Source of the DNA: Streptomyces lydicus | GTDB taxonomy: Bacteria; Actinomycetota; Actinomycetes; Streptomycetales; Streptomycetaceae | DNA: 16,439 bases | Assembly: GCF_000717345.1 (NCBI RefSeq) | Contig: NZ_JNZA01000069.1 | Location: 1 to 16,439 of the forward strand | Direction of reading: 5' to 3' | Shown: piece after piece, positions 1 through 16,439 of the stretch | How the letters are laid out: each line of letters opens with the position of its first letter | How positions within the stretch are numbered: the first letter of the stretch is position 1 | Translations under genes and position numbers: made by a program | The notes under the pieces: generated by a model | Told to the model about the DNA's origin: nothing | What the model saw: the letters and a program-made list of their open reading frames with translations, nothing else | The model's database searches: none

Positions 1-11
1 CCCGAACCCAC

Positions 12-2630: not shown

Positions 2631-2648
2631 ACCGCCCGGCCGGGAGCG

Positions 2649-2680
2649 CCGGGGTGTGAGAAGCCGCACGCACACCCCGG
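2649..2680 (-). terminator. Hairpin downstream of the SCO6745-like gene
   Basis: CCGGGGTGTG (2649-2658) pairs perfectly with CACACCCCGG (2671-2680) around a 12-base loop. It begins 40 bases beyond the TAG stop of the minus-strand gene at 2721-3590 and lies upstream of the tex promoter region, so it probably insulates the two genes. It has no T-tract. Confidence 0.5.
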
Positions 2681-2720
2681 GCCCGCCCCCGAGGGAGCTT
2701 CCTGCCGACTGCCGAAGGGC

Positions 2721-3590: not shown

Positions 3591-3601
3591 ACAGGGCAGG
3601 G

Positions 3602-3617
3602 TACCGACCCGTCGGTA
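3602..3617. promoter_or_regulatory. Perfect palindrome, TetR-type operator candidate
   Basis: TACCGACCCGTCGGTA has two perfect 7-base arms, TACCGAC and GTCGGTA, around two bases. The form (ACCGAC..GTCGGT) resembles operators of TetR/AcrR-type repressors in actinomycetes. It lies 11 bases upstream of the minus-strand start at 3590, where a bound repressor would block transcription, and about 140 bases from the divergent regulator gene. No TetR gene is in the window. Operator function is inferred. Confidence 0.5.
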
Positions 3618-3695
3618 TGGGGGTGGCGGGAGGGCGTCGGGTGCCGCACCGGCCCCCTCCGCTCCGGGGCGGCGCCGGCTCTCCGTTCCGCGCCG

Positions 3696-3721
3696 TGGCA
3701 GGAAAGGTGGGAAACCTGTCA
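3696..3721. promoter_or_regulatory. Imperfect dyad upstream of GlxA-type regulator
   Basis: TGGCAGGAAA on the plus strand (3696-3705) faces TGACAGGTTT on the minus strand (3721-3712), centred about 49 bases before the ATG at 3757. Each half-site agrees at 8 of 10 positions with TGGCSNGWWY, the established target of AdpA. AdpA has the same DJ-1-plus-AraC architecture as the downstream gene. The site could serve autoregulation or AdpA control; neither is shown. Confidence 0.3.
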
Positions 3722-3756
3722 TTGCGGCCACCGCGCCCGCTGCCCAGGATGGGGCC

Positions 3757-4728
3757 ATGGAACAGCGCGATGTGCTGGTCGTCCTCTTCGACGGCGTGCA
3801 GGCTCTCGACGTCACCGGACCGGTCGACGTCTTCAACGGGGCGGACCGGGCGGCGCCCGGCAGCTACCGGATCCGTACCGCCGCCCTCGACGCCGCTCCG
3901 GTCCGCACGACGAGCGGACTGACCCTCGTCCCCGACCTCGCGCTCGCCGACGCGCCGGTGCCGCACACCCTGCTGGTGCCCGGCGGCGAAGGCACCCGTA
4001 CGCCCGACCCCCGGCTGACCGACTGGCTGCGCGGGAACGCCCACCGCGCCCGGCGCAAGGTCTCGGTGTGCAGCGGGGCGCTGCTGCTGGCCGAGACCGG
4101 CCTGCTCGACGGCCGTCGCGCGACGACCCACTGGATGCTGTGCGACACCCTCGCGGAGCGGTTCCCGGCCGTGCGGGTCGAGCCCGAACCGATCTACGTA
4201 CGCGACGGCGATCTGGCGACCTCGGCCGGCGTGACCGCCGGTATCGACCTGGCGCTGGCCCTGGTGGAGGAGGACCTCGGCCGGGATCTCGCGCTGACCG
4301 TCGCCCGGCATCTGGTGGTCTTCCTGCGGCGTCCCGGCAACCAGACCCAGTTCAGCGCCCAGTTGGCGGCCCAGACGGCGCAGCGGCGGCCGCTGCGCGA
4401 CGTCCAGCACTGGATCACCGAGAACCCGGCCGCGGACCTGTCCGTCGACGCCCTCGCGGACCGCGCGGGGCTCTCACCGCGGCACTTCGCCCGGGCGTTC
4501 CGGGACGAGGTCGGCATGACGCCGGGGCGCTACGTCGACCGGGTGCGGCTGGAGGCGGCCCGCCGCCGGCTGGAGGACACCGTCGACGGCGTCGCGCAGG
4601 TCGCGCGCCGCTGCGGCTACGGCACCCCCGAGGCGATGCGCCGCGCCTTCCTGCGGGCGCTGGGCGCCTCCCCGGCGGAGTACCGCCGCCGGTTCCAGCC
4701 GGCCGCACCGCAGCCGCGGCCGGTCTGA
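3757..4728 (+). CDS. GlxA family transcriptional regulator (DJ-1/PfpI + AraC HTH)
   Basis: This is a 323-residue cytoplasmic regulator. Residues about 5-180 form a DJ-1/PfpI-like domain: LDVTGPVDVF holds Asp18, and VCSGALLLAETGLL holds Cys105 at the position of the nucleophilic elbow cysteine. Residues about 220-315 form an AraC/XylS domain with two helix-turn-helix units: ALADRAGLSPRHFARAF, then VARRCGYGTPEAMRRAF. In this family the first domain is normally a sensory or dimerisation module. The ATG at 3757 has AGGA seven bases upstream. The stop is 62 bases before a gene for a stand-alone DJ-1 superfamily enzyme, the most likely target or partner. The gap is pyrimidine-rich, with three CCTTCCC-like units. 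At 323 residues it is shorter than AdpA (about 400), so I do not call it AdpA. The ligand is unknown. Confidence 0.93.
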   Translation: MEQRDVLVVLFDGVQALDVTGPVDVFNGADRAAPGSYRIRTAALDAAPVRTTSGLTLVPDLALADAPVPHTLLVPGGEGTRTPDPRLTDWLRGNAHRARRKVSVCSGALLLAETGLLDGRRATTHWMLCDTLAERFPAVRVEPEPIYVRDGDLATSAGVTAGIDLALALVEEDLGRDLALTVARHLVVFLRRPGNQTQFSAQLAAQTAQRRPLRDVQHWITENPAADLSVDALADRAGLSPRHFARAFRDEVGMTPGRYVDRVRLEAARRRLEDTVDGVAQVARRCGYGTPEAMRRAFLRALGASPAEYRRRFQPAAPQPRPV

Positions 4729-4790
4729 GCACCGCCGCGCCTTCCCCCTTCCCCGACCCTTCCCGCGATTCCTCGACACCAGGAGCCGAC

Positions 4791-5435
4791 ATGCAGATCG
4801 CCATCCTTCTCTACGACCACTTCACCGCCCTGGACGCCATCGGCCCGTACGAGACCCTCAGCAGACTGCCGGGAGCCGAGACGGTGTTCGTCGGCGAGCG
4901 CGCCGGCACCCACCGCAGTGATCTCGGTTCGCTCGGCCTGGTCGCCGACGCCGCGCTCGGCGAGGTCACCGCCCCGGACATCCTCGTCGTGCCCGGTGGC
5001 CCGGGGCAGACCGCGCTGATGGCGGACGGCCCGCTGCACGAGTGGATCCGCGCGGTGGACGCCGGCACCACCTGGACCACCTCGGTGTGCACCGGCTCGC
5101 TGATCCTCGGTGCCGCCGGCCTGCTCCGGGGGCGCCGGGCGACGTCCCACTGGCTGGCACTGGACCAGCTGCCCGGCCTCGGGGCCGAGCCGACCGGGGA
5201 GCGGGTGGTCTTCGACGGCAAGTACGTGACGGCGGCCGGCGTCTCGTCCGGTATCGACATGGGCCTGAGGCTGGCCGGCCGGATCGCCGGGGACACCGTG
5301 GCCCAGACGATCCAGCTCGGCATCGAGTACGACCCGCAGCCGCCCTACGACGCGGGCGCACCGGAGAAGGCACCCGCCGAGGTCACCGCGCTGCTGCGGG
5401 ACCGCGCCCGGTCCGTGCTGAGCGGCCAGCAGTAG
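4791..5435 (+). CDS. DJ-1/PfpI family protein, isonitrile hydratase-like
   Basis: This 214-residue soluble protein starts at an ATG with AGGAG five to six bases upstream. It resembles Pseudomonas isonitrile (isocyanide) hydratase InhA, which adds water to an isonitrile to give an N-formamide. The shared features are LDAIGPYE with Asp15, TSVCTGSL with the nucleophilic Cys100, GAAGLLRGRRATSHW, and the C-terminal block IEYDPQPPYDAGAPEKAP. Asp15 and Cys100 match by my alignment the Asp and Cys reported as catalytic in the Pseudomonas enzyme. It follows a GlxA-type regulator in the same direction and is probably co-transcribed or controlled by it. The fold and cysteine are secure. The substrate is not: related proteins can be glyoxalases, deglycases or of unknown function. 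Confidence 0.88.
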   Translation: MQIAILLYDHFTALDAIGPYETLSRLPGAETVFVGERAGTHRSDLGSLGLVADAALGEVTAPDILVVPGGPGQTALMADGPLHEWIRAVDAGTTWTTSVCTGSLILGAAGLLRGRRATSHWLALDQLPGLGAEPTGERVVFDGKYVTAAGVSSGIDMGLRLAGRIAGDTVAQTIQLGIEYDPQPPYDAGAPEKAPAEVTALLRDRARSVLSGQQ

Positions 5436-5450
5436 TTCCGGCCTGCCGAG

Positions 5451-5465
5451 GGCGCCCGCGGCGCC
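5451..5465. terminator. Small GC hairpin between convergent genes
   Basis: GGCGCC, a CGC triloop and GGCGCC form a symmetrical 6-bp stem in the 39-base gap between two convergent stop codons (5435 and 5475). It is suitably placed as a bidirectional terminator. The stem is short and has no T-tract. Confidence 0.35.
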
Positions 5466-5474
5466 GGTCCGGCG

Positions 5475-6248
5475 TCAGGGCGTGGGCCAGGTGAAGCGCG
5501 GCGCCCGGCGCTCCAGGAAGGCGGCGGCACCCTCCGCGGTGTCGCCGCTGGCGCGCGCCTGCGCGGCCCAGTGGGCGCCGCGCTCCTCGGCCTCGGCGGG
5601 CGGGACGTCCCAGGTCCCGTTGGCCAGCTCCTTCGCCGCGGTCTGGGTCAGCAGCGACCGGCTCGCCAGTACGGCCGAGAACTCCGCGACCCGCTTGGCC
5701 AGCTCGCCCTCCGCCAGCACCTCGTCCACCAGCCCGGTCCGCAGCGCCCGCGCGCAGTCGATCAACTCACCGGAGAACAGCAGGTACTTGGCCGTGGCGA
5801 GCCCCACCAGCCGGACCAGCCGCCGGGTGGCGGACGCCGGGTAGACCACCCCCAGCTTGGCCGGCGTCACGCCGAACAGCGCACCCTCCTCCGCGAACCG
5901 CAGATCGCAGGCGGCCGCCAACTGGGCGCCGCCGCCGACGCAGTAGCCGCGTATCGCCGCCAGCGTCGGCTTGGGGAAGGCCGCCAGTGCCTCCTCGGCC
6001 GCCACCGCCAGGCCCTGCGACTCGCCCGCCGCGTTCCCCCGCAGCGAGCCGATGTCCGCACCCGCGCAGAACGTGCCGCCCTCGCCGGTCAGCACCAGCG
6101 CCCGTACGGCGCGGTCGCCCGCCAGCCGGTCCAGCAGCGGCGGCAGATCCCGCCACATCTGGACGGTCATCGCATTGCGCTTGCCCGTGTTGCTGATGGT
6201 GACGGTCGCTGTGCCGTCGCTGACGTGCGTCGTGAGACCCGGTTCCAT
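5475..6248 (-). CDS. Enoyl-CoA hydratase/isomerase (crotonase) family protein
   Basis: This 257-residue crotonase-fold protein is soluble. The two segments that form the CoA-thioester oxyanion hole are present: FCAGADIGSL at residues 60-69 and GYCVGGGAQLAAACD at 101-115. The two glutamates used by classical enoyl-CoA hydratases (Glu144 and Glu164 of rat crotonase) align with Gln109 (GGGAQ) and Pro129 (FGVTP). It therefore probably does not perform standard hydration, and may be an isomerase, a thioesterase-like or another acyl-CoA enzyme of the superfamily. TAATAT lies 6 bases before the ATG at 6248, with no Shine-Dalgarno sequence, suggesting a leaderless transcript. It is divergent from the ABC-F gene. 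The pathway is unknown and no other acyl-CoA gene is nearby. Confidence 0.9.
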   Translation of the reverse strand: MEPGLTTHVSDGTATVTISNTGKRNAMTVQMWRDLPPLLDRLAGDRAVRALVLTGEGGTFCAGADIGSLRGNAAGESQGLAVAAEEALAAFPKPTLAAIRGYCVGGGAQLAAACDLRFAEEGALFGVTPAKLGVVYPASATRRLVRLVGLATAKYLLFSGELIDCARALRTGLVDEVLAEGELAKRVAEFSAVLASRSLLTQTAAKELANGTWDVPPAEAEERGAHWAAQARASGDTAEGAAAFLERRAPRFTWPTP

Positions 6249-6254
6249 GCCCGG

Positions 6255-6260
6255 ATATTA
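6255..6260 (-). promoter_or_regulatory. -10 element of the crotonase gene, leaderless candidate
   Basis: On the minus strand TAATAT (6260-6255) matches 5 of 6 positions of TATAAT. It is separated from the ATG at 6248 by six bases, so transcription would begin at or next to the A of the start codon. No clear -35 is seen. Confidence 0.5.
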
Positions 6261-6286
6261 GAGCGACCGGCGCGGCCGCGGCCGGA

Positions 6287-6292
6287 TACGAT
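6287..6292 (+). promoter_or_regulatory. -10 element of the ABC-F gene, near-leaderless candidate
   Basis: TACGAT is ten bases before the ATG at 6303, and no Shine-Dalgarno sequence lies between them. A start 6-8 bases downstream of the hexamer would leave a leader of only a few bases. The divergent promoters share a 54-base gap. Confidence 0.45.
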
Positions 6293-6302
6293 CGGCGGCC
6301 TG

Positions 6303-7946
6303 ATGTCAGCAACTCTCGTCGCCAAAGACCTCGCCGCCGGCCACGGCGAGCGCGTCCTGTTCTCCGGCCTGGATCTCGTCGTCGCTCCCGGCGATGTGAT
6401 CGGCCTCGTCGGCGCCAACGGAGCGGGCAAGTCCACCCTGCTGCGCCTGCTGGCCGGCCTGGACACCCCGGAGGACGGCAAGCTCTCGCTCAGCCCGCCC
6501 ACCGCCACCGTCGGCCACCTCCCGCAGGAGCCCGACCGCCGCCCCGGGGAGACCGTACGGGCCTTCCTCGCCCGCCGTACGGGCGTGTCCGCCGCCCAGC
6601 GCGCCCTGGACGACGCCACCCAGGCGCTGGTCGAGGAGCAGCCCGGCGCGGACGACGCCTACGCCACGGCGCTGGAGCGCTGGCTCGCGCTGGGCGCCGC
6701 CGACCTGGACGAACGTGCCGAGGAGACCGCGGCCCAGCTCGGCCTCTCCATCGGCCTCGACCAGCCGATGACCGCGCTCTCCGGAGGCCAGGCCGCCCGC
6801 GCCTCGCTGGCCTCCCTGCTGCTCTCCCGTTACGACATCTTCCTGCTGGACGAGCCCACCAACGACCTCGACCTGGACGGCCTGCAGCGGCTGGAGTCCT
6901 TCGTCACCGGGCTGCGCGCCGGCACCGTCCTGGTCAGCCACGACCGCGAGTTCCTGACCCGCACGGTCACCCGCGTCGTCGAGCTCGACCTCGCCCAGCA
7001 GCAGGTCAACAGCTACGGCGGCGGTTACGCCTCCTACCTGGAGGAGCGCGAGCGGGCCCGCCGGCACGCGCGCGAGCAGTACGAGGAGTACGCCGACACC
7101 AGGGCCGCCCTGGAGACCCGCGCGCACACCCAGCGCAACTGGATGGAGAAGGGCGTCAAGAACGCCCGCCGCAAGGCCACCGACAACGACAAGATCGGCC
7201 GCAAGGGCCGGGTGGAGGCCACCGAGAAGCAGGCGGCCAAGGCCAAGCAGACCCAGCGTCTGATCGAGCGGATGGAGGTCGTCGAGGAGCCCCGCAAGGA
7301 GTGGGAGCTGCGGATGGAGATCGCCGCCGCGCCGCGGGCCGGCGCGGTCGTGGCCACCCTCCGCGGCGCCGGCGTCCGGCGCGGTGATTTCACCTTCGGG
7401 CCGGTGGACCTCCAGATCGACTGGGCGGACCGGGTCGCCATCACGGGTCCCAACGGCTCCGGCAAGTCCACCCTGCTCGCCGCCCTCCTCGGCCGGCTGC
7501 CGCTGGACGCCGGCCAGGCCACGCTCGGCCCCGGTGTGGTGGTCGGCGAGGTCGACCAGGCCAGGGGGCGGTTCCTGGGCGACGAGCCGCTGATGGATGC
7601 CTTCCGGGCCTCCGTCCCCGACCTCTCGCCGGCCGACGTGCGCACCCTGCTCGCCAAGTTCGGGCTGAAGGCGGCGCATGTGCTGCGCCCGGCGCGCACC
7701 CTCTCGCCGGGGGAGCGCACCCGCGCCGCGCTGGCCCTCCTCCAGGGCCGCGGGGTCAACCTGCTGGTCCTGGACGAGCCGACCAACCACCTCGACCTGC
7801 CCGCCATCGAGCAGCTGGAGTCCGCGCTCGCGTCGTACCGGGGCACCCTGCTGCTGGTCACCCACGACCGCCGGATGCTGAAGGCGGTGCACACCACGCG
7901 CCGGATCGAGGTGGAGGCCGGCCGGATCACCGACCGGGCCGTCTGA
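6303..7946 (+). CDS. ABC-F family ATPase (ribosome-associated type)
   Basis: This 547-residue protein has two ATP-binding cassettes and no membrane segment, the ABC-F layout. Cassette 1 has Walker A GANGAGKST (37-45), signature LSGGQAARA, and Walker B LLDEPTNDLD with catalytic Glu184. Cassette 2 has Walker A GPNGSGKST (382-390), signature LSPGERTRA, and Walker B LVLDEPTNHLD with Glu492. Between them is a charged, helical inter-domain linker (about 215-330) rich in Lys, Arg and Glu. In this superclass the linker reaches the ribosomal peptidyl-transferase or E-site region. Members act as translation factors or protect ribosomes from antibiotics. Both sites look intact. Sequence alone does not tell whether this is a resistance or housekeeping member, and no antibiotic biosynthesis gene is adjacent. 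An initiator tRNA gene follows 83 bases downstream. Confidence 0.93.
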   Translation: MSATLVAKDLAAGHGERVLFSGLDLVVAPGDVIGLVGANGAGKSTLLRLLAGLDTPEDGKLSLSPPTATVGHLPQEPDRRPGETVRAFLARRTGVSAAQRALDDATQALVEEQPGADDAYATALERWLALGAADLDERAEETAAQLGLSIGLDQPMTALSGGQAARASLASLLLSRYDIFLLDEPTNDLDLDGLQRLESFVTGLRAGTVLVSHDREFLTRTVTRVVELDLAQQQVNSYGGGYASYLEERERARRHAREQYEEYADTRAALETRAHTQRNWMEKGVKNARRKATDNDKIGRKGRVEATEKQAAKAKQTQRLIERMEVVEEPRKEWELRMEIAAAPRAGAVVATLRGAGVRRGDFTFGPVDLQIDWADRVAITGPNGSGKSTLLAALLGRLPLDAGQATLGPGVVVGEVDQARGRFLGDEPLMDAFRASVPDLSPADVRTLLAKFGLKAAHVLRPARTLSPGERTRAALALLQGRGVNLLVLDEPTNHLDLPAIEQLESALASYRGTLLLVTHDRRMLKAVHTTRRIEVEAGRITDRAV

Positions 7947-7988
7947 CCAGGCACGGAGCCCCTCCCGACAGGCGTGGTGATTATCGAT

Positions 7989-8017
7989 TTGGCCCTGCGG
8001 TCGCCGACCCGTAAGGT
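7989..8017 (+). promoter_or_regulatory. Promoter of the initiator tRNA gene
   Basis: TTGGCC (7989-7994) and TAAGGT (8012-8017) are separated by 17 bases, a good housekeeping-sigma pair. The predicted start near 8024 is a few bases before the 5' end of the tRNA at 8030. Confidence 0.6.
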
Positions 8018-8029
8018 AGGGGCAACCGA

Positions 8030-8103
8030 CGCGGGGTGGAGCAGCTCGGTAGCTCGCTGGGCTCATAACCCAGAGGTCGCAGGTTCAAATCCTGTCCCCG
8101 CTA
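8030..8103 (+). tRNA. Initiator tRNA-fMet (CAT anticodon)
   Basis: The cloverleaf is complete. The acceptor strands are 8030-8036 and 8096-8102, the D-arm 8039-8055, the anticodon stem CTGGG/CCCAG with loop CTCATAA (anticodon CAT at 8064-8066), and the T-arm 8079-8095 with loop TTCAAAT. The discriminator base is A at 8103. Initiator hallmarks are an unpaired first position (C1 opposite U72), three consecutive G-C pairs in the anticodon stem, and an A11-U24 pair in the D-stem. CTG rather than CCA follows, so CCA must be added by the tRNA nucleotidyltransferase. Confidence 0.97.
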
Positions 8104-8112
8104 CTGATACGT

Positions 8113-8148
8113 ACAGCAGGTCCGGTGCTCAGGCACCGGACCTGCTGT
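8113..8148 (+). terminator. Strong hairpin terminator after tRNA-fMet
   Basis: ACAGCAGGTCCGGTGC (8113-8128) pairs perfectly over 16 bases with 8133-8148 around the tetraloop TCAG. It begins nine bases after the tRNA. No T-run follows, as is usual in Streptomyces. Confidence 0.8.
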
Positions 8149-8253
8149 GCTGTGTGCGGCTGCTGTGGCCGGAGGTCTCCGGTGCGCCCCGATGGCGGGG
8201 ATCGTACGGTCGCTCTCCGGGGTGTTCCGCGAAGCAGGAACAAAGAGAACAGG

Positions 8254-8293
8254 ATCGGTCACCCCGCCGACCAAATCACTCTGAATCGGTCAC
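8254..8293. repeat. Direct repeat ATCGGTCAC upstream of ATPase-domain gene
   Basis: ATCGGTCAC occurs at 8254-8262 and 8285-8293, 31 bases apart, which is about three helical turns. A third TCAC is at 8276-8279 (AATCACT). These lie 70-110 bases before the start of the next gene. The rest of 8149-8363 shows low third-position GC in all frames that I read and no credible gene. A regulator site is possible but unproved. Confidence 0.3.
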
Positions 8294-8363
8294 AAGGTGT
8301 CGATAAGTGCTGACTTGCGTTCAGCAGGCCGGTACGGACCAACGCATTCCCAACACTCTTCCT

Positions 8364-8861
8364 GTGAGGATGCCTTCCGGACCCCCCGCAGAACCCCCTG
8401 AAGAGCTGACCTCCCCGCTCGCGTACGAAGGTGTCTGGCGGTTCACCGCCCCGGCACTGGAGGCTTCGGTGCCCCAGGCCCGCCACGCGGTCCGGGATCT
8501 GCTCGCCGAACAGCGTGTGCCCGTGGCCGCCGAGATCATGGACGGCCTGCTGCTCATCGTCTCCGAACTCGTCACCAACGCCGTCCGGCACGCCGCCGTG
8601 CTCTCGCCGCAGATCGCCGTCCAGGTCACCATCGGTGCGAACTGGCTCCGGGTCGCGGTCGAGGACAACCACCCCTACCGCCCCAAGGCTTTGGAGGCGG
8701 AGGAGGGGGATGTCGGAGGCCGCGGGCTGTGGCTGGTCAAGACGCTCACGGCCGAGGCGGGCGGCAAATGCGACGTCGAGCACACGGTGAACGGAGGCAA
8801 GGCCATCTGGGCCGAGCTTCCGCTCACCCCGCTCGCTACCAGCCCGCCGACTGCCCGGTGA
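8364..8861 (+). CDS. ATP-binding HATPase_c protein, RsbW/SpoIIAB-like
   Basis: This soluble 165-residue protein is of the anti-sigma-factor/serine-kinase ATPase type abundant in Streptomyces. The N-box is LLLIVSELVTNAVRHA. A G1-like segment is VEDNHPYRPK, where the usual D-x-G/S is altered, and a G2 segment is GGRGLWLVKTL. Relatives bind or phosphorylate anti-sigma antagonists, or have unknown partners; no sigma factor or antagonist gene is adjacent. The start is uncertain: GTG 8364 and ATG 8370 are in frame (GTG-AGG-ATG). GTG 8307 has an AAGGTG sequence but would add 19 codons with only about half G/C at third positions, so I reject it. The last 26 bases overlap the end of the convergent idi gene. 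Confidence 0.88.
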   Translation: MRMPSGPPAEPPEELTSPLAYEGVWRFTAPALEASVPQARHAVRDLLAEQRVPVAAEIMDGLLLIVSELVTNAVRHAAVLSPQIAVQVTIGANWLRVAVEDNHPYRPKALEAEEGDVGGRGLWLVKTLTAEAGGKCDVEHTVNGGKAIWAELPLTPLATSPPTAR

Positions 8862-9447
8862 GTTCGCGCACCGCCGGGCGGGCCGCGTCCAGCACGGTCA
8901 TGAACCACGAGGAGAACGGCGCGGCGGCATGCCGATCGGCCAGCTCCTGCGGCGTCACGAACGCGATCTCGCCGACCTCCTCCGGGTCCGGCGCCGGCTC
9001 GGTCCGCACCAGCCCCACGAACAGGTGGTTGTACTCCTGCTCCACGAGCCCGGAGTCCGGATCCGGATGGTTGTAACGCACCGTGCCCGCCTCGGCCAGC
9101 AGCGCGGGCGCCAGCCCCAGCTCCTCCGTCGTCCGGCGGGCCGCCGCGACGAACGGCGCCTCACCGGGGTAGGGGTGGCCGCAGCAGGTGTTGGACCACA
9201 CACCGGGGGAGTGGTACTTCCCCAGCGCCCGGCGCTGGAGCAGCAGCCGGCCCTTCTCGTCGAAGAGGAAGACCGAGAACGCCCGGTGCAGCTGGCCCGG
9301 AGGCTGGTGCGCCGCGAGCTTCTCCGCGGTGCCGATCGTCCGACCGTCCTCGTCGACCAGCTCCAGCATGATCGGTTCGGCGGTGCCGCCCGGTGTGGTC
9401 ACCGCCGCGTCCCCGGCGGTCTGTCCGTTGGCAGGTGTGATCGGCAT
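8836..9447 (-). CDS. idi: Isopentenyl-diphosphate delta-isomerase, type I
   Basis: This 203-residue cytosolic Nudix-fold enzyme interconverts isopentenyl and dimethylallyl diphosphate. Visible signatures are QLHRAFSVFLFD, KYHSPGVWSNTCCGHP with the catalytic Cys89 of CGHP, a Nudix-like helix AARRTTEELGL, and EQEYNHLFVG, where Glu138 aligns with the second catalytic residue of the E. coli enzyme. Histidines 79 and 91 fit the metal site. Two ATGs compete. The one at 9453 has AAGG directly abutting it. The one at 9447 has AAGGA five bases upstream, so I prefer 9447. The gene is alone on its strand. It is divergent, across about 590 bases, from the envelope operon and overlaps the preceding convergent gene by 26 bases at its 3' end. 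Confidence 0.95.
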   Translation of the reverse strand: MPITPANGQTAGDAAVTTPGGTAEPIMLELVDEDGRTIGTAEKLAAHQPPGQLHRAFSVFLFDEKGRLLLQRRALGKYHSPGVWSNTCCGHPYPGEAPFVAAARRTTEELGLAPALLAEAGTVRYNHPDPDSGLVEQEYNHLFVGLVRTEPAPDPEEVGEIAFVTPQELADRHAAAPFSSWFMTVLDAARPAVRELTGQSAGW

Positions 9448-9762
9448 GCCCATCCTTGTCGTCGGTCTACGACGTCAAGTCTGCCCTAGCCCGGCCCTGA
9501 TCAGCGGCACAGCGGGTGCGCGGCGCCACACCGCCCGCGCGCCGTCCGCCGTGCGCGCCCGTCGGGAAACGGCCGTGCATCCACCGTGCAGCCGCCGTGA
9601 AAGGGGCCACATCCGTGCGTGCCGGCCGTGGCGCCGGGCCGGCGCCCGGTGCCGCGGGCCGCCGGCCGCAGCGGCGGGCGATGATCTCCGCCGGGCCCGG
9701 GACGACTCGTGCCCCACCTGCCCCGGCACAACCCGCCCGCCCCGTGACCAGCCCGCTCATAA

Positions 9763-9784
9763 CCGGCACCGGATTGGGTGCCGG
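9763..9784. repeat. Inverted repeat with 8-bp arms
   Basis: CCGGCACC (9763-9770) and GGTGCCGG (9777-9784) form a perfect stem with a six-base loop in the idi/operon intergenic region. It could be an operator or an RNA hairpin. Its function is unknown. Confidence 0.4.
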
Positions 9785-9860
9785 GCCCCTGGCCAGTTGT
9801 TCATGCGCCCCCCGATCCACCATGATGATCGCGGCAGGCGCAGCCGTCGGTCACTCGATC

Positions 9861-9881
9861 GTGCGGTGAATGTGCGGTGAA
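9861..9881 (+). promoter_or_regulatory. Tandem direct repeat GTGCGGTGAA, 11-base period
   Basis: GTGCGGTGAA occurs identically at 9861-9870 and 9872-9881, one helical turn apart. It ends 21 bases before a possible -10 hexamer TAGCCT (9903-9908). The placement over the -35 region suits an activator that binds tandem sites on one DNA face. It is not a match to a consensus I know. Confidence 0.4.
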
Positions 9882-9974
9882 CGGCCGCATCCGGCGATCC
9901 GATAGCCTCTGCCGACGTGCCACCCCAGCCCACCGGGCGCCAGGTGTGCCACGCCCGCTGCCCGGGTAGTTCGT

Positions 9975-9995
9975 ATCGAATGCGGATCGACTGCG
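9975..9995 (+). promoter_or_regulatory. SARP-like heptamer repeat, 11-base period
   Basis: ATCGAATGCG (9975-9984) and ATCGACTGCG (9986-9995) match at 9 of 10 bases with an 11-base period. The inner heptamers TCGAATG and TCGACTG are separated by four bases. This is the geometry and TCGA core described for SARP activators in Streptomyces. No good -10 lies eight bases downstream, so binding by such a regulator is uncertain. Confidence 0.4.
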
Positions 9996-10033
9996 AACCG
10001 GCCCGTGCTGCCTTGTCAGCATCCAAGGAGTGA
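9980..10033 (+). promoter_or_regulatory. Possible 17-codon leader ORF before the operon
   Basis: An ATG at 9980 opens a 17-residue frame (MRIDCEPARAALSASKE). Its TGA at 10031-10033 abuts the AAGGAG of the next gene and lies six bases before its CTG start, in the same frame. The position would suit translational coupling or attenuation. There is no strong ribosome binding site of its own, so it may be chance. Confidence 0.2.
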
Positions 10034-10042
10034 GTTCGTCTG
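10025..10042 (+). promoter_or_regulatory. Ribosome binding site plus apparent CTG start
   Basis: AAGGAG (10025-10030) lies nine bases before CTG (10040-10042), the only plausible initiator in the coding frame after the in-frame TGA at 10031. The next standard start is GTG at 10145. The 35 codons between have 31 G/C third positions, so they are almost certainly translated. Confidence 0.6.
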
Positions 10043-11845
10043 TCGACCGCCATCCTCACCGGTTCGCCGGTCGCCGGGTCGCCGCTCGAAGCCGACCTGC
10101 GCACGCTGGGCTTTGACGTCCGTACGGCGAACGACCCCGCGTCGGTGGCCGAGCTGATCGCCGGCCTGCCCGCGCAGCAGCGGATCGCCGTCGTCGATCC
10201 CCGCTTCGTGGGGCATCTGCACGCGCTCCGGCTCGCGCTGACCGACCCCCGCTTCCCGGCCGCCGCCGTACCCGGCGCGCTCACCGTGCAGCCCGAGGCG
10301 CGCCCCGCGCTGGCCCGCGCGGTCGGCCGGATCCCGGTCGGCGCCGGCACCGCGCACCTCACGGACGTACTGACCGAGACGCTCACCGAGTCCCTGGACC
10401 AGGACACCGTCGGCCTGCACCGGGTCGAGCTGGGCAGCCTGGTCGCCACCGTCGCCCTCACCCCCGCCCAGCGCGAGGAGGCACGGGAGGCGGTCGCCGC
10501 CGTCGACGACGAGGCGGTACGGCTGCGCACCGCCGTGAAGTCCCGCGACGGGTTCTTCACGACCTTCGGCATCAGCCCGTACTCCCGCTACCTCGCCCGC
10601 TGGTGCGCGCGCCGCGGCCTCACTCCCAATCAGGTCACCACGGCGTCCCTGCTCACCGCGCTGATCGCGGCGGGCTGCGCGGCCACCGGAACCCGCGGCG
10701 GCTTCGTCGCGGCCGGCCTGCTGCTGCTCTTCTCCTTCGTCCTGGACTGCACGGACGGGCAGCTCGCCCGCTACTCCCTGCAGTACTCGACGCTGGGCGC
10801 CTGGCTGGACGCCACCTTCGACCGGGCCAAGGAGTACGCGTACTACGCGGGCCTGGCCCTGGGTGCCGCGCGCGGCGGGGACGACGTATGGGCGCTGGCG
10901 CTGGGCGCGATGGTGCTGCAGACCTGCCGCCACGTCGTCGACTTCTCCTTCAACGAGGCGAACCACGACGCCACGGCGAACACGAGCCCGACCGCCGCGC
11001 TCTCCGACAAGCTCGACAGCGTCGGCTGGACGGTCTGGGTACGCCGGATGATCGTGCTCCCCATCGGTGAGCGCTGGGCCATGATCGCCGTGCTCACCGC
11101 GCTCACCACCCCGCGCATCGTCTTCTACGCCCTGCTCATCGGCTGTGCGCTGGCCGCCTGCTACACCACCGCGGGACGGGTGCTGCGCTCGCTGACCCGG
11201 CGGGCCCGGCGCACCGACCGCGCCGCGCAGGCGCTGGCCGACCTCGCCGACTCGGGGCCGGTCGCCGAGCTGATCGCCCGCGGTGCGCGCGGCCGCGGCC
11301 GGACCGGTTCCTACCTCGCCCCCGTTATGGCGTTTCTCTCGGCCGCGGTGCTGCTGATCTGGGTGATCTTCGAGGACGACCCCTCGTCCTGGCTCACCGT
11401 CGGCGTCGCCGCCGCCTCCGCGCTGCTGGCCGGTGCGGCCGTCTCCCGCCCGCTCAAGGGCGCCCTCGACTGGCTCGTACCGCCGCTCTTCCGGGCCGGC
11501 GAGTACGTCACGATCCTGGTGCTGGCCGCCCGCGCGGACGTCCCCGGGGCGCTGCCCGCGGCGTTCGGGCTGGTCGCGGCGGTCGCCTACCATCACTACG
11601 ACACGGTCTACCGCATCCGCGGTGGCACCGGAGCCCCTCCGCGGTGGCTGGTCCGGGCGACGGGCGGTGCCGAGGGACGGATCCTCGTGGTCACCGTCCT
11701 CGCTGCCGCGTTGTCCCCCTCAGGTTTCACAATCGCGCTGACGGCCCTTGCTGTGGTCCTGGCGCTGCTGGTGCTCGCCGAGAGCATCCGCTTCTGGGTG
11801 TCCTCCCAAGCACCCGCCGTACACGATGAAGGAGAACCCGCATGA
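10040..11845 (+). CDS. CDP-alcohol phosphatidyltransferase family protein with extra N- and C-terminal domains
   Basis: This 601-residue membrane protein carries the complete CDP-alcohol phosphotransferase motif D-x2-D-G-x2-A-R-x8-G-x3-D-x3-D: Asp236, Asp239-Gly240, Ala243-Arg244, Gly253, Asp257 and Asp261. Such enzymes move a phospho-alcohol from CDP-alcohol to a hydroxyl acceptor at the membrane. Residues about 1-165 form a soluble domain of unknown role. It precedes the segment SRDGFFTTFGISPYSR and RGLTPNQVT, a junction similar to that in archaeal fused inositol-phosphate cytidylyltransferase/DIPP synthases. The N-terminal part lacks the GxGxR nucleotidyltransferase loop. A hydrophobic C-terminal region (about 425-590) with YHHYDTVYRIRG resembles, from memory, DUF5941. 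The start is CTG at 10040. The stop overlaps the next ATG (ATGA). It is the first gene of the operon. Its substrate is unknown. Confidence 0.9.
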   Translation: MSTAILTGSPVAGSPLEADLRTLGFDVRTANDPASVAELIAGLPAQQRIAVVDPRFVGHLHALRLALTDPRFPAAAVPGALTVQPEARPALARAVGRIPVGAGTAHLTDVLTETLTESLDQDTVGLHRVELGSLVATVALTPAQREEAREAVAAVDDEAVRLRTAVKSRDGFFTTFGISPYSRYLARWCARRGLTPNQVTTASLLTALIAAGCAATGTRGGFVAAGLLLLFSFVLDCTDGQLARYSLQYSTLGAWLDATFDRAKEYAYYAGLALGAARGGDDVWALALGAMVLQTCRHVVDFSFNEANHDATANTSPTAALSDKLDSVGWTVWVRRMIVLPIGERWAMIAVLTALTTPRIVFYALLIGCALAACYTTAGRVLRSLTRRARRTDRAAQALADLADSGPVAELIARGARGRGRTGSYLAPVMAFLSAAVLLIWVIFEDDPSSWLTVGVAAASALLAGAAVSRPLKGALDWLVPPLFRAGEYVTILVLAARADVPGALPAAFGLVAAVAYHHYDTVYRIRGGTGAPPRWLVRATGGAEGRILVVTVLAAALSPSGFTIALTALAVVLALLVLAESIRFWVSSQAPAVHDEGEPA

Positions 11846-12579
11846 TCGGCCTCGTGCTGGCTGCCGGCGCCGGACGGCGTCTGCGCCCCTACACCGACAC
11901 CCTGCCCAAGGCACTGGTGCCGGTCGACGGGGACACGACCATCCTCGACCTGACCCTCGGCAACTTCGCCGAGATCGGCCTGACCGAGGTCGCGATCATC
12001 GTCGGCTACCGCAAGGAGGCCGTGTACGAGCGCAAGGAGGCCCTGGAGCAGAAGTACGGCCTCAAGCTCACCCTGATCGACAACGACAAGGCCGAGGAGT
12101 GGAACAACGCCTACTCCCTGTGGTGCGGCCGTGACTCGATCAAGCACACCGTGATCCTCGCCAACGGCGACACCGTGCACCCGGTCTCCGTCGAGAAGAC
12201 CCTGCTCGCCGCCCGCGGCAACGGCCAGAAGATCATCCTCGCGCTGGACACGGTCAAGCAGCTGGCAGACGAGGAGATGAAGGTCATCGTGGACCCCGAG
12301 AAGGGCGTCCAGAAGATCACCAAGCTGATGGACCCCGCCGAGGCGACCGGCGAGTACATCGGTGTCACCCTCATCGAGGGCGAGGCCGCCGAGGAGCTGG
12401 CCGACGCCCTGAAGACCACCTTCGAGCGGGACCCCGACCTCTACTACGAGGACGGCTACCAGGAGCTGGTCAACCGCGGCTTCAAGGTGGACGTGGCCCC
12501 GATCGGCGACGTCAAGTGGGTCGAGATCGACAACCACGACGACCTGGCGAAGGGCCGTGACATCGCATGCCAGTACTGA
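11842..12579 (+). CDS. Nucleotidyltransferase, LicC / inositol-phosphate cytidylyltransferase-like
   Basis: This 245-residue soluble NTP-transferase presumably condenses CTP or another NTP with a phosphorylated alcohol or sugar, releasing pyrophosphate. The nucleotide-binding loop LAAGAGRRLRPYTDTLPKAL is at the N-terminus. ILANGDTVHP carries the metal-binding Asp, GEYIGVTLIEG follows, and the C-terminal VKWVEIDNHDDL is typical of LicC- and IPCT-type enzymes. AAGGAG lies seven bases before the ATG, which overlaps the preceding stop as ATGA. Its neighbours are two CDP-alcohol transferases, which need a CDP-activated substrate, and a glycerol-1-phosphate dehydrogenase homologue. CTP as donor and a polyol phosphate as acceptor are therefore my favoured inference. 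Its Lys and Glu content is higher than that of its neighbours. A plain NDP-sugar pyrophosphorylase is the main alternative. Confidence 0.9.
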   Translation: MIGLVLAAGAGRRLRPYTDTLPKALVPVDGDTTILDLTLGNFAEIGLTEVAIIVGYRKEAVYERKEALEQKYGLKLTLIDNDKAEEWNNAYSLWCGRDSIKHTVILANGDTVHPVSVEKTLLAARGNGQKIILALDTVKQLADEEMKVIVDPEKGVQKITKLMDPAEATGEYIGVTLIEGEAAEELADALKTTFERDPDLYYEDGYQELVNRGFKVDVAPIGDVKWVEIDNHDDLAKGRDIACQY

Positions 12580-13628
12580 CCCGCCTCATTCCGTCCCCGG
12601 TCGTCGTCGACATCAACGCCGGCGCCCTGGACGACCTGGCGGGCCTGCTGGCCGATCAGCGCATCTCCGCGTCCGGCAAGCTCGCCATCGCGATCAGCGG
12701 CGGCTCGGGGGCGCGGCTGCGCGAGCGGCTGTCCCCCGCGCTGCCCGGCGCCGAGTGGTACGAGGTCGGCGGCGGCACGCTGGATGACGCGATCAAGCTC
12801 GCCGACGCCATGAAGAAGGGGCACTACGACGCGGTCGTGGGCCTCGGCGGCGGCAAGATCATCGACTGTGCCAAGTTCGCCGCCGCGCGGATCGGCCTGC
12901 CGCTGGTCGCCGTCGCGACGAACCTGTCGCACGACGGCCTGTGCTCGCCGGTCGCCACGCTGGACAACGACGCGGGCCGCGGCTCGTACGGTGTGCCGAA
13001 CCCGATCGCCGTGGTGATCGACCTCGACATCATCCGCGAGGCCCCGGTCCGGTTCGTCCGCTCCGGCATCGGCGACGCGATCTCCAACATCTCCGCGGTC
13101 GCGGACTGGGAGCTCTCGCACCGCGAGACCGGCGAGGACATCGACGGGCTGGCCGCCGCCATGGCCCGCCAGGCCGGCGAGGCCGTGCTGCGCCACCCCG
13201 GAGGTGTCGGCGACGACAACTTCCTCCAGGTGCTGGCCGAGGGCCTGGTCCTGACCGGCATCTCGATGTCGGTCGCGGGCGACAGCCGTCCGGCCTCCGG
13301 TGCCTGCCACGAGATCAACCACGCCTTCGACCTCCTCTTCCCCAAGCGCGCCGCGAGCCACGGCGAGCAGTGCGGCCTGGGCGCCGCCTTCGCCACGCAT
13401 CTGCGCGGGGACAAGGAGACCCGTGACCTGATGGTCGAGGTGCTGCGCCGGCACGGGCTGCCGGTCACGCCGGGTGAGATCGGCTTCACCGACGAGGAAT
13501 TCGTCCAGGTCGTCGAGTACGCACCCAAGACCCGCCCCGGGCGCTACACCATCCTGGAGCACCTCGACCTGTCCACCGACCAGATCAGGGACGCTTACGC
13601 CGACTATGCACAAGCCGTCAGTAGCTGA
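12567..13628 (+). CDS. sn-Glycerol-1-phosphate dehydrogenase family protein (iron-ADH/DHQS superfamily)
   Basis: This 353-residue cytosolic enzyme closely follows the signatures of archaeal glycerol-1-phosphate dehydrogenase (EgsA). These are GGGKIIDCAKFAA (94-106, NAD(P) binding), VATNLSHDGLCSPVA with Asp123, GIGDAISNISAVADWEL, SRPASGACHEINHAFD with His248, and SHGEQCGLGAAFATHL with His265. Asp123, His248 and His265 are the likely metal ligands. The family reduces dihydroxyacetone phosphate to sn-glycerol-1-phosphate, the mirror form of normal bacterial glycerol phosphate; Bacillus AraM is a bacterial example. The ATG overlaps the preceding gene by 13 bases in another frame, and the 3' end overlaps the next gene by 23. 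It probably supplies the polyol phosphate for the adjacent nucleotidyltransferase. A different ketose or polyol phosphate substrate remains possible. Confidence 0.92.
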   Translation: MPVLTRLIPSPVVVDINAGALDDLAGLLADQRISASGKLAIAISGGSGARLRERLSPALPGAEWYEVGGGTLDDAIKLADAMKKGHYDAVVGLGGGKIIDCAKFAAARIGLPLVAVATNLSHDGLCSPVATLDNDAGRGSYGVPNPIAVVIDLDIIREAPVRFVRSGIGDAISNISAVADWELSHRETGEDIDGLAAAMARQAGEAVLRHPGGVGDDNFLQVLAEGLVLTGISMSVAGDSRPASGACHEINHAFDLLFPKRAASHGEQCGLGAAFATHLRGDKETRDLMVEVLRRHGLPVTPGEIGFTDEEFVQVVEYAPKTRPGRYTILEHLDLSTDQIRDAYADYAQAVSS

Positions 13629-14385
13629 ACTCCGCCCGGTCGTGCACCCCGCGGGTGTCAAGGACCGGCGCAGCGGTGAGCACTGGGCCGGCCGGCTCTA
13701 CATGCGCGAGATCTCCCTGCGCATCGACCGGCACCTGGTGAACACGCGGGTCACGCCCAACCAGCTGACCTACCTGATGACCGTCTTCGGCGTCCTTGCC
13801 GCCCCGGCACTGCTGGTGCCGGGGATCTGGGGCGCCGTGCTCGGCGTGCTGATGGTCCAGCTCTACCTGCTGCTGGACTGCGTCGACGGCGAGATCGCCC
13901 GCTGGAAGAAGCAGTTCTCGCTGGGCGGCGTGTACCTGGACCGGGTCGGCGCCTACCTGTGCGACGCCGCGGTCCTGGTCGGCTTCGGCCTGCGCGCCGC
14001 CGACCTGTGGGGCGCGGGGCGGATCGACTGGCTGTGGGCGTTCCTCGGCACCCTCGCGGCCCTCGGCGCCATCCTGATCAAGGCCGAGACCGACCTCGTC
14101 GGCGTCGCCCGTCACCAGGGCGGGCTGCCGCCGGTCAAGGAGGCGGCGTCCGAGCCGCGCTCGTCCGGTATGGCGCTGGCCCGCAAGGCGGCCGCGGCGC
14201 TGAAGTTCCACCGGCTTGTCCTCGGTGTCGAGGCGTCCCTGCTGATCCTGGCCCTGGCGGTCCTGGACACGGTCAGGGGCGACCTGTTCTTCTCCCGTCT
14301 GGGCGTTGCCGTGCTGGCCGGCATCGCGCTCCTTCAGACGCTGCTCCACCTCGTGTCCATCCTCGCCTCCAGCAGGCTCAAGTGA
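13606..14385 (+). CDS. Second CDP-alcohol phosphatidyltransferase family protein, altered motif
   Basis: This 259-residue multi-pass membrane protein has an N-terminal amphipathic segment and RVTPNQLTYLM before the first membrane helices. The motif reads Asp91, Asp94-Gly95, Ala98-Arg99, Gly108 and Asp112. The fourth aspartate, which serves as the general base in studied members, is replaced by Ala116 (YLDRVGAYLCD). I checked this codon by codon in the nucleotide sequence. It may use another residue or acceptor geometry, or act as a partner of the larger transferase. The ATG at 13606 overlaps the previous gene by 23 bases, and its only weak AGGGA is 14 bases upstream, so translation is probably coupled. 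The substrate is unknown. Confidence 0.9.
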   Translation: MHKPSVAELRPVVHPAGVKDRRSGEHWAGRLYMREISLRIDRHLVNTRVTPNQLTYLMTVFGVLAAPALLVPGIWGAVLGVLMVQLYLLLDCVDGEIARWKKQFSLGGVYLDRVGAYLCDAAVLVGFGLRAADLWGAGRIDWLWAFLGTLAALGAILIKAETDLVGVARHQGGLPPVKEAASEPRSSGMALARKAAAALKFHRLVLGVEASLLILALAVLDTVRGDLFFSRLGVAVLAGIALLQTLLHLVSILASSRLK

Positions 14386-14396
14386 CGGGAGCCGAT

Positions 14397-15290
14397 GTGG
14401 GTACGAGCATGCGCGTCGGTGCGGTCGTCCTGACCATGGGCAACCGCCCCGACGAGCTGCGGGCGCTGCTGGACTCGGTCGCCAAGCAGGACGGTGACCC
14501 GATCGCGATCGCCGTCGTCGGCAACGGTTCGCCGCTGCCCGAGCTGGCCGTTCCCGGCGTGGACGTCCGGACCGTCGAGCTGCCGGAGAACGTCGGCATC
14601 CCGGCGGGCCGCAACGTCGGCATCGAGGCGTTCGGGCCCGGCGGCAGCGAGGTCGACATCCTGCTCTTCCTGGACGACGACGGGCTGCTGGCCAGGGAGG
14701 ACACCGCCGAGCTGTGCCGCAAGGCGTTCGCCGGGGACCCCGGGCTCGGGATCATCAGTTTCCGGATCGCCGATCCGGAGACCGGCGAGACCCAGCGCCG
14801 GCACGTGCCCAGGCTGCGCGCGTCCGACCCGATGCGCTCCTCGCGGGTGACCACCTTCCTCGGCGGCGCGAACGCGGTCCGTACGAAGGTGTTCGAGGAG
14901 GTCGGCGGGCTGCCCGACGACTTCTTCTACGCCCATGAGGAGACCGACCTGGCCTGGCGCGCGCTGGACGCGGGCTGGCTGATCGACTACCGGTCGGACA
15001 TGGTCCTCTTCCACCCGACGACGGCACCGGCCCGGCACGCGGTCTACCACCGGATGGTGGCCAGGAACCGCGTCTGGCTGGCCCGCCGCAACCTGCCTGC
15101 CCCGCTGGTTCCGGTCTATCTCGGTGTCTGGTTTCTGCTCACCCTCGCCCGCCGGCCGTCGCGGCCGGCACTGCGGGCCTGGCTGGGCGGCTTCAAGGAG
15201 GGCTGGGCGACCCCGTGCGGTCCCAGGCGCCCCATGAAGTGGGCTACCGTTTGGCGACTGACCCGACTGGGCCGCCCACCCGTCATCTGA
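14397..15290 (+). CDS. Glycosyltransferase family 2 protein
   Basis: This is a 297-residue GT-A fold enzyme. It has the N-terminal strand VGAVVLTMGNRPDEL, PENVGIPAGRNVGI, the metal-binding acidic triad FLDDDG (Asp93-95), a GGANAVR loop, and HEETDLAWRALDAGW (180-194) carrying the usual catalytic acidic residues. It resembles rhamnosyl- or galactofuranosyl-type GT2 enzymes, which transfer an NDP-activated sugar to a lipid-linked acceptor on the cytoplasmic membrane face. A hydrophobic patch (PVYLGVWFLLTLARRP) near the C-terminus could bind membrane. I choose GTG 14397 because GGGAG lies five bases upstream. GTG 14382, overlapping the previous stop, and ATG 14409 are in-frame alternatives. It probably decorates the product of the phosphatidyltransferases before export. 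Donor and acceptor are unknown. Confidence 0.9.
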   Translation: MGTSMRVGAVVLTMGNRPDELRALLDSVAKQDGDPIAIAVVGNGSPLPELAVPGVDVRTVELPENVGIPAGRNVGIEAFGPGGSEVDILLFLDDDGLLAREDTAELCRKAFAGDPGLGIISFRIADPETGETQRRHVPRLRASDPMRSSRVTTFLGGANAVRTKVFEEVGGLPDDFFYAHEETDLAWRALDAGWLIDYRSDMVLFHPTTAPARHAVYHRMVARNRVWLARRNLPAPLVPVYLGVWFLLTLARRPSRPALRAWLGGFKEGWATPCGPRRPMKWATVWRLTRLGRPPVI

Positions 15291-15320
15291 CAAGCTCGTA
15301 TCTGAGAGCATCAGCGCGAA

Positions 15321-15337
15321 CCGGGGCGTGGCCCCGG
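15321..15337 (+). repeat. Hairpin in the leader of the permease gene
   Basis: CCGGGGC (15321-15327), loop GTG, GCCCCGG (15331-15337) form a perfect 7-bp stem in the only sizeable gap of the operon (15291-15358). It ends 21 bases before the GTG start and leaves the ribosome binding site free. It could tune expression of the exporter or stabilise a processed mRNA. No convincing promoter is seen in the gap. Confidence 0.45.
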
Positions 15338-15358
15338 CAGCGCACCTTGAGGACGAAA

Positions 15359-16297
15359 GTGTCAACTGTGAGCGAGACCACGCACGACGGTGCGGTCGCC
15401 ATGAGTGCCCCGCCAGCTTCCGACGAAGGGCTCTCGCCCGCCCAGCGGGCCCAGAAGTACGGGCTTGCGCAGAGCGGGGCCCGGCCCAGCCTCCCGGACT
15501 ACATCCGGCAGCTGTGGCAGCGGCGGCACTTCATCTCCGCCTTCGCCAGCGCGAAGCTGACGGCGCAGTACAGCCAGGCCAAGCTGGGACAGGTCTGGCA
15601 GGTGGCCACGCCCCTGCTGAACGCGCTCGTCTACTACTTGATCTTCGGCCTGCTGATCGGTACGAGGAAGGGCATCCCCGACTTCGTCCCGTTCCTGGTG
15701 ACCGGCGTCTTCATCTTCACCTTCACCCAGAGTTCGGTGATGGCCGGTACCCGGGCGATCTCCGGCAACCTCGGGCTGGTGCGGGCGCTGCACTTCCCGC
15801 GGGCGTGCCTGCCGGTGTCGTTCTGCCTGATGCAGTTGCAGCAGCTGCTGTTCTCGATGGGCGTGCTGGTGCTGATCCTGCTCGGCTTCGGGCAGATGCC
15901 GACGTGGTCGTGGCTGCTGGTCTTCCCGGCGTTGACCCTGCAGTTCGTGTTCAACACCGGCTTGGCGATGGTGATGGCGCGGCTGGGTTCCAAGACTCCG
16001 GACCTGGCGCAGCTGATGCCGTTCATCATGCGGACGTGGATGTACGCGTCCGGCGTGATGTTCAGCATCGACCTGATCCTCAAGGGCAAGCACGTCCCGC
16101 ATTTCGTGGAAGTCCTGCTCAACGGGAATCCGGCCGCGGTCTACATCGACCTGATGCGTTTCGCGCTGATCGACAGCTTCACCCACAAGCAGCTGCCGCC
16201 GCACGTGTGGGCGTTCGCCGGCGGATGGGCGCTGCTGATGGGCGTCGTCGGTTTCGTGTACTTCTGGAAGGCTGAGGAGCGGTACGGACGTGGCTGA
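15359..16297 (+). CDS. ABC-2 type polysaccharide/teichoic acid exporter permease (TagG/Wzm-like)
   Basis: This 312-residue integral membrane protein has a cytoplasmic N-terminus of about 80 residues, unusually long and polar, and then about six membrane segments. Examples are PLLNALVYYLIFGLLIG, FVPFLVTGVFIFTFT, LFSMGVLVLILLGFG, WLLVFPALTLQFVFN, and a C-terminal WALLMGVVGFVYFW followed by KAEERYGRG. The KLTAQYSQAKLGQVWQV block before the first helix and the basic C-terminal end are typical of TagG/Wzm permeases. These flip lipid-linked glycopolymers across the membrane. The start is GTG 15359, with GAGGA five bases upstream. The 3' end overlaps the ATPase gene by eight bases, which fits a two-component transporter. 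It is the natural exit route for the product of this operon; the cargo is inferred. Confidence 0.93.
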   Translation: MSTVSETTHDGAVAMSAPPASDEGLSPAQRAQKYGLAQSGARPSLPDYIRQLWQRRHFISAFASAKLTAQYSQAKLGQVWQVATPLLNALVYYLIFGLLIGTRKGIPDFVPFLVTGVFIFTFTQSSVMAGTRAISGNLGLVRALHFPRACLPVSFCLMQLQQLLFSMGVLVLILLGFGQMPTWSWLLVFPALTLQFVFNTGLAMVMARLGSKTPDLAQLMPFIMRTWMYASGVMFSIDLILKGKHVPHFVEVLLNGNPAAVYIDLMRFALIDSFTHKQLPPHVWAFAGGWALLMGVVGFVYFWKAEERYGRG

Positions 16298-16439
16298 GCA
16301 GAACAACGGCCTCCAGCCGACCGAGGCGGCCGGGGAGCGTATCCCGACGGTGATCGCGGACGATCTGCACATCGTCTACCGCGTCTACGGCACCGGTGCG
16401 GGCCGGGGCAGTGCCACCGCGGCGCTGAACCGGATCATC
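16290..16439 (+). CDS. ABC transporter ATP-binding protein (TagH/Wzt-like), 5' part only
   Basis: Fifty codons are present before the window ends, so the gene is truncated by the window edge. The start GTG 16290 lies inside the end of the permease gene, with GAGGAG (16274-16279) ten bases upstream. The visible residues IADDLHIVYRVYGTG and GSATAALNRII match the N-terminal extension found before Walker A in Streptomyces TagH-type ATPases. The Walker motifs themselves lie outside the window. The identification rests on this N-terminus and on coupling to the permease gene. Confidence 0.85.
   Translation, partial: MAEQNNGLQPTEAAGERIPTVIADDLHIVYRVYGTGAGRGSATAALNRII

Follow-up and report, generated by a model that had tools for sequence, protein, structure and literature searches.

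Gene content of the locus

The stretch of DNA analysed here (the window; 16,439 nucleotides from Streptomyces lydicus) is a complete contig, C69, positions 1-16439, of an 8.18-Mb genome in 131 contigs. It carries six plus-strand genes (A to F), overlapping or closely spaced, and the start of a seventh (G), with a divergent isopentenyl pyrophosphate (IPP) isomerase gene upstream of A. We focus on B and C, which encode a cytidylyltransferase and a homologue of sn-glycerol-1-phosphate (G1P) dehydrogenase. An earlier interpretation made from the letters alone (the sequence-only reading) had proposed a same-strand operon at 10040..16439, and Pfam and NCBIfam matches confirm A to F at that place with the families it named. 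It had also counted seven genes and credited the window with each step needed to make, activate, transfer, glycosylate and export a polyol phosphate. Six genes are indeed complete, but the seventh (the ATPase, "TagH") is a 50-codon stub, and there is no TagF-type polymerase among the operon genes; three TagF-like proteins are encoded elsewhere in the genome.

The dehydrogenase homologue and the cytidylyltransferase

Gene C (12567..13628, plus strand; Pfam Fe-ADH_2) encodes a homologue of the EgsA/AraM type, whose best solved relative is the G1P dehydrogenase 4rgq (1.4e-42). An SRPxSG motif with two flanking histidines is common to C and the three solved G1P dehydrogenases for which alignments were shown (4rgq, 5fb3 and 9h4x, the last compared only as far as its alignment reaches). 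R241 and R323 of C are arginines in 4rgq and 5fb3 as well, whereas 3ce9, a named glycerol dehydrogenase, has Ser and Lys. SRPxSG, H252, R323 and R326 are conserved across 109 actinomycete and 10 Methanobacteriaceae rows but missing from E. coli GldA, in a comparison with one GldA sequence that gave only the positions agreeing between actinomycete and archaeal rows. H248 and H265 occur in 100% and D170 in 96% of the 109 actinomycete rows, and all three in 100% of the 10 archaeal rows; we take this Asp and the two His to be the metal ligands. The strong EgsA signatures described by the sequence-only reading are thus borne out, and C is a candidate sn-glycerol-1-phosphate dehydrogenase that, judged by its motifs, should reduce dihydroxyacetone phosphate to sn-G1P. 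In a tree of C, 23 actinomycete rows are separate from 8 archaeal rows; the GldA branch is very long and the rooting not informative. Among the 120 of 3986 matches listed, the named homologues are nearly all from Streptomyces.

Gene B (11842..12579, plus strand; Pfam NTP_transferase) encodes a cytidylyltransferase of the LicC/IMPCT (COG1213-like) type by its best solved relatives, LicC 1jyk (3.3e-14) and 4jd0 (1.4e-9), in agreement with the cytidylyltransferase-like enzyme predicted earlier. The structure 4jd0 is Thermotoga IMPCT, for which R16, K26 and D112 are reported as critical residues (PMC12275187). The equivalent residues of B in the 4jd0 alignment, R13, K23 and D110, are invariant in 106/106 rows, as are N88, N89, Y91, S92, W226, E228 and D230. 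We propose that B may be a CTP:sn-glycerol-1-phosphate cytidylyltransferase.

Linkage and conservation of B and C

In a set of 61 genomes, high-scoring matches to C were found in all 36 other genomes of the same genus, in 4/15 of the same order and in 2/9 of the same class. The order of the IPP isomerase gene and A to F is identical in the eight Streptomyces-genus loci read (L024-L030, L037). Outside Streptomyces, all 26 loci read (L031-L036, L070-L089) have B immediately upstream of C; 20 of these loci were drawn from 31 non-Streptomyces genomes with C. B adjoins C in 52 of 55 named actinomycete loci, the exceptions being two at contig ends (L127, L140) and one miss within the available stretch (L142). 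Across 197 genomes of the class, C is found in 47 and B in 47, with a union of 48; in the only mismatches, G134 and G147, the gene that was found sits close to a contig end (119 and 75 bases away). B and C behave as one unit, and their adjacency and almost 1:1 occurrence point to the product of C as the substrate of B. No match to B, D or E was found in 10 archaeal loci. Four Streptomyces-genus genomes (G003, G020, G183, G213) have two full-length copies of C, and G213 also has two of B.

CDP-alcohol phosphotransferases and flanking genes

Gene A (10040..11845, plus strand) is assigned to the CDP-alcohol phosphotransferases by Pfam, signature and fold matches. Its product combines a cytidylyltransferase-like fold at about residues 1-155, recognized by structure matches, with CDP-OH_P_transf (195-337) and a C-terminal DUF5941 domain (393-601); no glycine-rich loop was seen in the N-terminal domain of the window sequence. 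Its start codon is uncertain (CTG at 10040 or GTG at 10145), and CTG is preferred here because AAGGAG lies upstream. The family signature, D-x2-D-G-x2-A-R-x8-G-x3-D-x3-D, is complete in A as DCTDGQLAR-x8-G-x3-D-x3-D and in 56 of the 57 related rows with a recognizable motif; 26 of 83 rows have no recognizable motif.

Gene D (13606..14385, plus strand; Pfam CDP-OH_P_transf) encodes a second homologue of this family, with a structure model (pLDDT 88.6) whose best fold match is AF2299 (4o6m; E 4.3e-6, TM-score 0.59 by query). The first three signature aspartates are kept in 98/98 rows; the fourth is Ala in the window and is absent in 98/98 rows (His 61, Ala 36, Pro 1). This aspartate is presumed to be the metal ligand and catalytic base of the family, and routine CDP-alcohol transfer by D would need an explanation of its loss. 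The two CDP-alcohol transferases of the sequence-only reading thus both belong to the family but are unlike. In three relatives (L112:11037-11768, from Paractinoplanes deccanensis; L081:10139-10855; L077:8356-9075), the gene overlapping C encodes a CDP-alcohol transferase other than D, and its signature is complete, fourth aspartate included. D is found near B-C in 50/55 named actinomycete loci and is a commoner partner than TagF, which argues against an exclusive role for TagF.

The remaining genes encode a glycosyltransferase and an exporter. Gene E (14382..15290, plus strand; Pfam Glycos_transf_2) encodes a GT2 glycosyltransferase of uncertain start: either ATG 14409 or GTG 14382, which overlaps the D stop codon. 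Gene F (about 15368..16297, start uncertain, plus strand; Pfam ABC2_membrane) encodes an ABC-2 permease of the Wzm/TagG kind, which matches the NCBIfam galactan exporter Wzm/RfbD at 4.2e-17, under the cut-off. Gene G (16290..16439, plus strand) comprises the first 50 codons of an ABC ATPase truncated by the contig end; a Pfam scan of this stub gave no match, but it is 78% identical over 50 amino acids to the N-terminus of the ATPase (Pfam ABC_tran) at locus L024. Of the TagGH-like exporter proposed earlier, the window contains the permease and only a stub of the ATPase, which is complete in L024.

A cation-efflux gene lies between the IPP isomerase gene and A in L024 (L024:15913-16917); the corresponding gap in the window (9454-10039) is too short for one. 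With numbering inferred from the IPP isomerase SCO6750 and this cation-efflux gene, the S. coelicolor orthologues of the operon are presumably SCO6752-6758; in the open-licence literature searched, five papers mention one of SCO6750-6755, and no mention of SCO6754 or SCO6756-6758 was found. Downstream of F, L024 encodes the ABC ATPase and then, at L024:1031-7800, a squalene/phytoene synthase, an amine-oxidase-type protein and a squalene-hopene cyclase, a hopanoid-type cluster. No evidence of a functional link between the operon and these genes was found.

Co-occurrence with TagF- and TagD-type proteins

TagF-type proteins (PF04464, strong at E up to 1e-30) occur in 46/48 of the class genomes with the B-C pair and in 24/149 others (Fisher 1.3e-24, kinship ignored). 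Without Streptomyces the counts are 30/32 versus 24/149, and tallied by genus 20/21 versus 15/69. Within the genus, 33 of 37 genomes, this one counted, have a strong TagF match. TagF adjoins the cluster in L031-L034 and lies near C in 7/26 non-Streptomyces stretches (those four, L084, L088 and L089). In L088, B, C, permease, ATPase, TagF and GT4 genes are consecutive, with two further PF04464 proteins, a GDPD, a UDP-galactopyranose mutase and LCP proteins in the vicinity; an LCP protein is present in 15/26 of the non-Streptomyces stretches.

TagD-like proteins were sought with TIGR01518, using a strong line of our own (E up to 1e-30) and a weak line (1e-12) beside the curated cut-off of 165.4 bits. 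At the strong line, matches occur in 13/197 genomes and in 0/48 with the pair; among genomes with TagF, they occur in 0/46 with the pair versus 7/24 without it. Gene content, motifs, catalytic residues, linkage, co-occurrence and the lack of better TagD-like matches where the module is present were computed here.

In this genome, the seven proteins scanned in the C16 stretch were an ABC-2 permease, two GT2-TagF fusions, a GT2, an epimerase, YfhO and PIG-L, and no CDP-polyol synthase was found among them. Contig C12 (L158:5928-7152) holds a small PF01467 cytidylyltransferase gene beside those for a signature-complete CDP-alcohol phosphotransferase and a Polysacc_synt protein, a second polyol-phosphate-like locus.

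Proposed pathway and alternatives

We favor, somewhat cautiously, the reading that B and C form a precursor module for CDP-sn-1-glycerol, which would feed an exported, teichoic-acid-like wall polymer. In this pathway, C would reduce dihydroxyacetone phosphate to sn-G1P and B would couple this with cytidine triphosphate (CTP) to give sn-1-series CDP-glycerol. Glycerol phosphate would then be passed to a lipid-linked acceptor by A, by TagF-type polymerases encoded elsewhere and perhaps by D; E would add sugar, and F-G would carry the product out to the wall. Where actinomycetes have the B-C module, it would stand in for TagD acting on sn-glycerol-3-phosphate (G3P). The substrates, the chirality, the order of the transferases and the teichoic-acid-like nature of the product are what we infer here. 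A wider version, which we regard as tentative and rather doubtful, is that a large part of the actinomycetes, including all Streptomyces-genus genomes sampled, have a wall polymer of poly(glycerol phosphate) made from archaeal-type sn-G1P via CDP-sn-1-glycerol. Wall teichoic acid (WTA) and lipoteichoic acid (LTA) would then be of one handedness and could be made by shared machinery, with D, which lacks the usual base of its family, starting the chain on an acceptor for which no deprotonation is required, for example polyprenyl phosphate.

Several observations weigh against this pathway. The NCBIfam model for G1P dehydrogenase (PRK00843) scores C at 238.7 bits, under its curated cut-off of 413, and of the 180 columns that never vary among ten closely related archaeal rows, C matches only 77 (GldA, 48). 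CpgD, an enzyme of the same type as B, is reported to make CDP-glycerate and to yield no product with glycerol-1-phosphate (PMC12275187), so the substrate of B is not deducible from its family. The co-occurrence stems partly from shared ancestry, and the Fisher tests ignore kinship. No TagD-like match passes the curated cut-off in any of the 197 class genomes or in the 61-genome set, so that the strong line is our own. Six of the 13 genomes above that line have no TagF, and weak TagD-like matches occur in 6 of the 47 genomes with C, including this one, where a TagD-like PF01467 gene scores 67.7 bits (cut-off 165.4). Eleven genomes with TagF have neither the pair nor a TagD match at 1e-12 (G078, G079, G130, G135, G166, G188, G198, G200, G207, G217, G227), and another route of CDP-polyol supply must therefore exist. 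Conversely, six genomes with C lack a strong TagF (the four of this genus, G022, G023, G031 and G034, and also G148 and G210), so TagF is not the sole user of the product, and the 7/26 stretches with TagF near C are a minority. A search for IspD gave a second match of 29 bits, against a cut-off of 27. Finally, according to a published survey, there are Streptomyces species that possess the full set of three archaeal lipid genes (PMC6431249), so G1P may go to an ether lipid in some species.

Two further destinations are not favored here. One is an archaeal-type ether lipid: no GGGPS/PcrB (PF01884) match was found in this genome, with the B. subtilis control positive. For the other, a ribitol route via TarI, there is one clear IspD, and the second match is the one just over the cut-off. 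CDP-2-glycerol (Gtp1-3) was considered as a further model; the term occurs in two papers of the open-licence literature searched.

An unlikely but substantial alternative is that the operon yields no polymer but a small or lipid-linked glycerophosphodiester, such as a glycerophospho-glycolipid; D or A would transfer G1P from CDP-glycerol to a single acceptor, and the result would be glycosylated by E and flipped by F-G. This would fit the steadiness of D, more than of TagF, as a neighbor of B-C, the signature-complete transferases after C in L077, L081 and L112, and the six genomes with C and no strong TagF, and among the closest solved relatives are IPCT-DIPPS and PIP synthase, enzymes that attach small head groups. 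Against it stand the presence of TagF in 46/48 genomes with the pair, the LCP proteins in 15/26 loci, and the inclusion of B-C in a permease-ATPase-TagF run in L088.

Considerably less probable is that the substrate of C is a different ketose phosphate and that of B a different polyol phosphate, of the inositol, ribitol or arabitol type. B is near LicC, which acts on phosphocholine, and IMPCT, which acts on inositol phosphate (PMC12275187), A and D are near inositol-phosphate transferases, and the sub-threshold score of C and its 77/180 archaeal columns would be accommodated. Against this, the motifs of C recur in solved G1P dehydrogenases from diverse sources, and they include both arginines that 3ce9 and GldA lack. 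Least probable, by a little, is ordinary stereochemistry, in which sn-G3P is what B converts to CDP-glycerol, while C serves some other purpose or works on G1P for an unrelated use: CDP-glycerol and WTA of B. subtilis are of the sn-3 series (PMC7086022), and the CDP-sn-1-glycerol pathway would need a changed stereoselectivity of the polymerase, but B and C are adjacent and occur almost 1:1, which speaks for B using the product of C, and C carries G1P dehydrogenase motifs.

Significance and comparison with known systems

In textbooks, archaeal and bacterial lipids are told apart by the chirality of their glycerol phosphate, and the same property distinguishes LTA from WTA in Bacillus. The sequence-only reading had called the implied envelope stereochemistry unusual; G1P is not foreign to bacterial envelopes, as LTA of B. 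subtilis is a Gro1P polymer whereas its WTA and CDP-glycerol are of the sn-3 series (PMC7086022), and the unusual part would be the entry of G1P via CDP-glycerol. If the CDP-sn-1-glycerol pathway is correct, a CDP-linked route for G1P would give the G1P-dehydrogenase homologues of actinomycetes a job and would explain the donor supply in actinomycetes that have TagF-type proteins and no clear TagD; WTA would share the stereochemistry of LTA, unlike in Bacillus. In S. hygroscopicus, the WTA and LTA backbones are reported to be very similar poly(glycerol phosphate) (PMC3196553), which one handedness for both would fit, although the relevant passages of that report give no glycerol handedness. 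The same report describes tagB/tagF orthologues in Streptomyces and no clear LtaS orthologue, and the failure of a tagO deletion in S. coelicolor led its authors to infer an essential role for teichoic acid (PMC7300013).

In a published comparison of synteny, teichoic acid biosynthesis is tied to a stretch of Streptomyces DNA comprising crtB, tagH, tagG, araM and genes for a CDP-alcohol transferase, a GT2 and a nucleotidyltransferase (PMC13118837). By its gene content, as given in the relevant part of that report, it is the region described here, and the neighborhood is thus already known as a teichoic-acid annotation; the loss of the aspartate in D is a new detail. Among the papers listed from the open-licence literature (20 of 180 in one search), no G1P/CDP-glycerol reading of this operon was found, nor was a paper on a G1P cytidylyltransferase found in that literature.

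A resembles IPCT-DIPPS (4mnd) and AF2299 (4o6m) in layout and fold, and D in fold, but no glycine-rich loop was seen in the N-terminal domain of A, and D lacks the fourth aspartate. With the AraM/PcrB route of B. subtilis, in which G1P is converted to heptaprenylglyceryl phosphate (PMC5059525, PMC6431249), the operon shares a bacterial enzyme of the EgsA/AraM type; unlike in that route, C is tied to a cytidylyltransferase and PcrB was not found in this genome. The Caulobacter phosphoglycerate cytidylyltransferase CpgD (COG1213 type; PMC12275187) is like B in enzyme type and in activating a three-carbon phosphate, but it makes CDP-glycerate, and the passages on CpgD mention no partner dehydrogenase. 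The likeness to the B. subtilis WTA pathway (TagD, TagB/F, TagGH) lies in CDP-glycerol as the proposed donor, TagF-type proteins in the genome, an ABC-2 permease and, beside the loci of some relatives, LCP proteins. In place of TagD, however, the operon has a LicC/IMPCT-type enzyme and a G1P-dehydrogenase homologue; the proposed series is sn-1 rather than sn-3, and two CDP-alcohol phosphotransferases are encoded in the operon.

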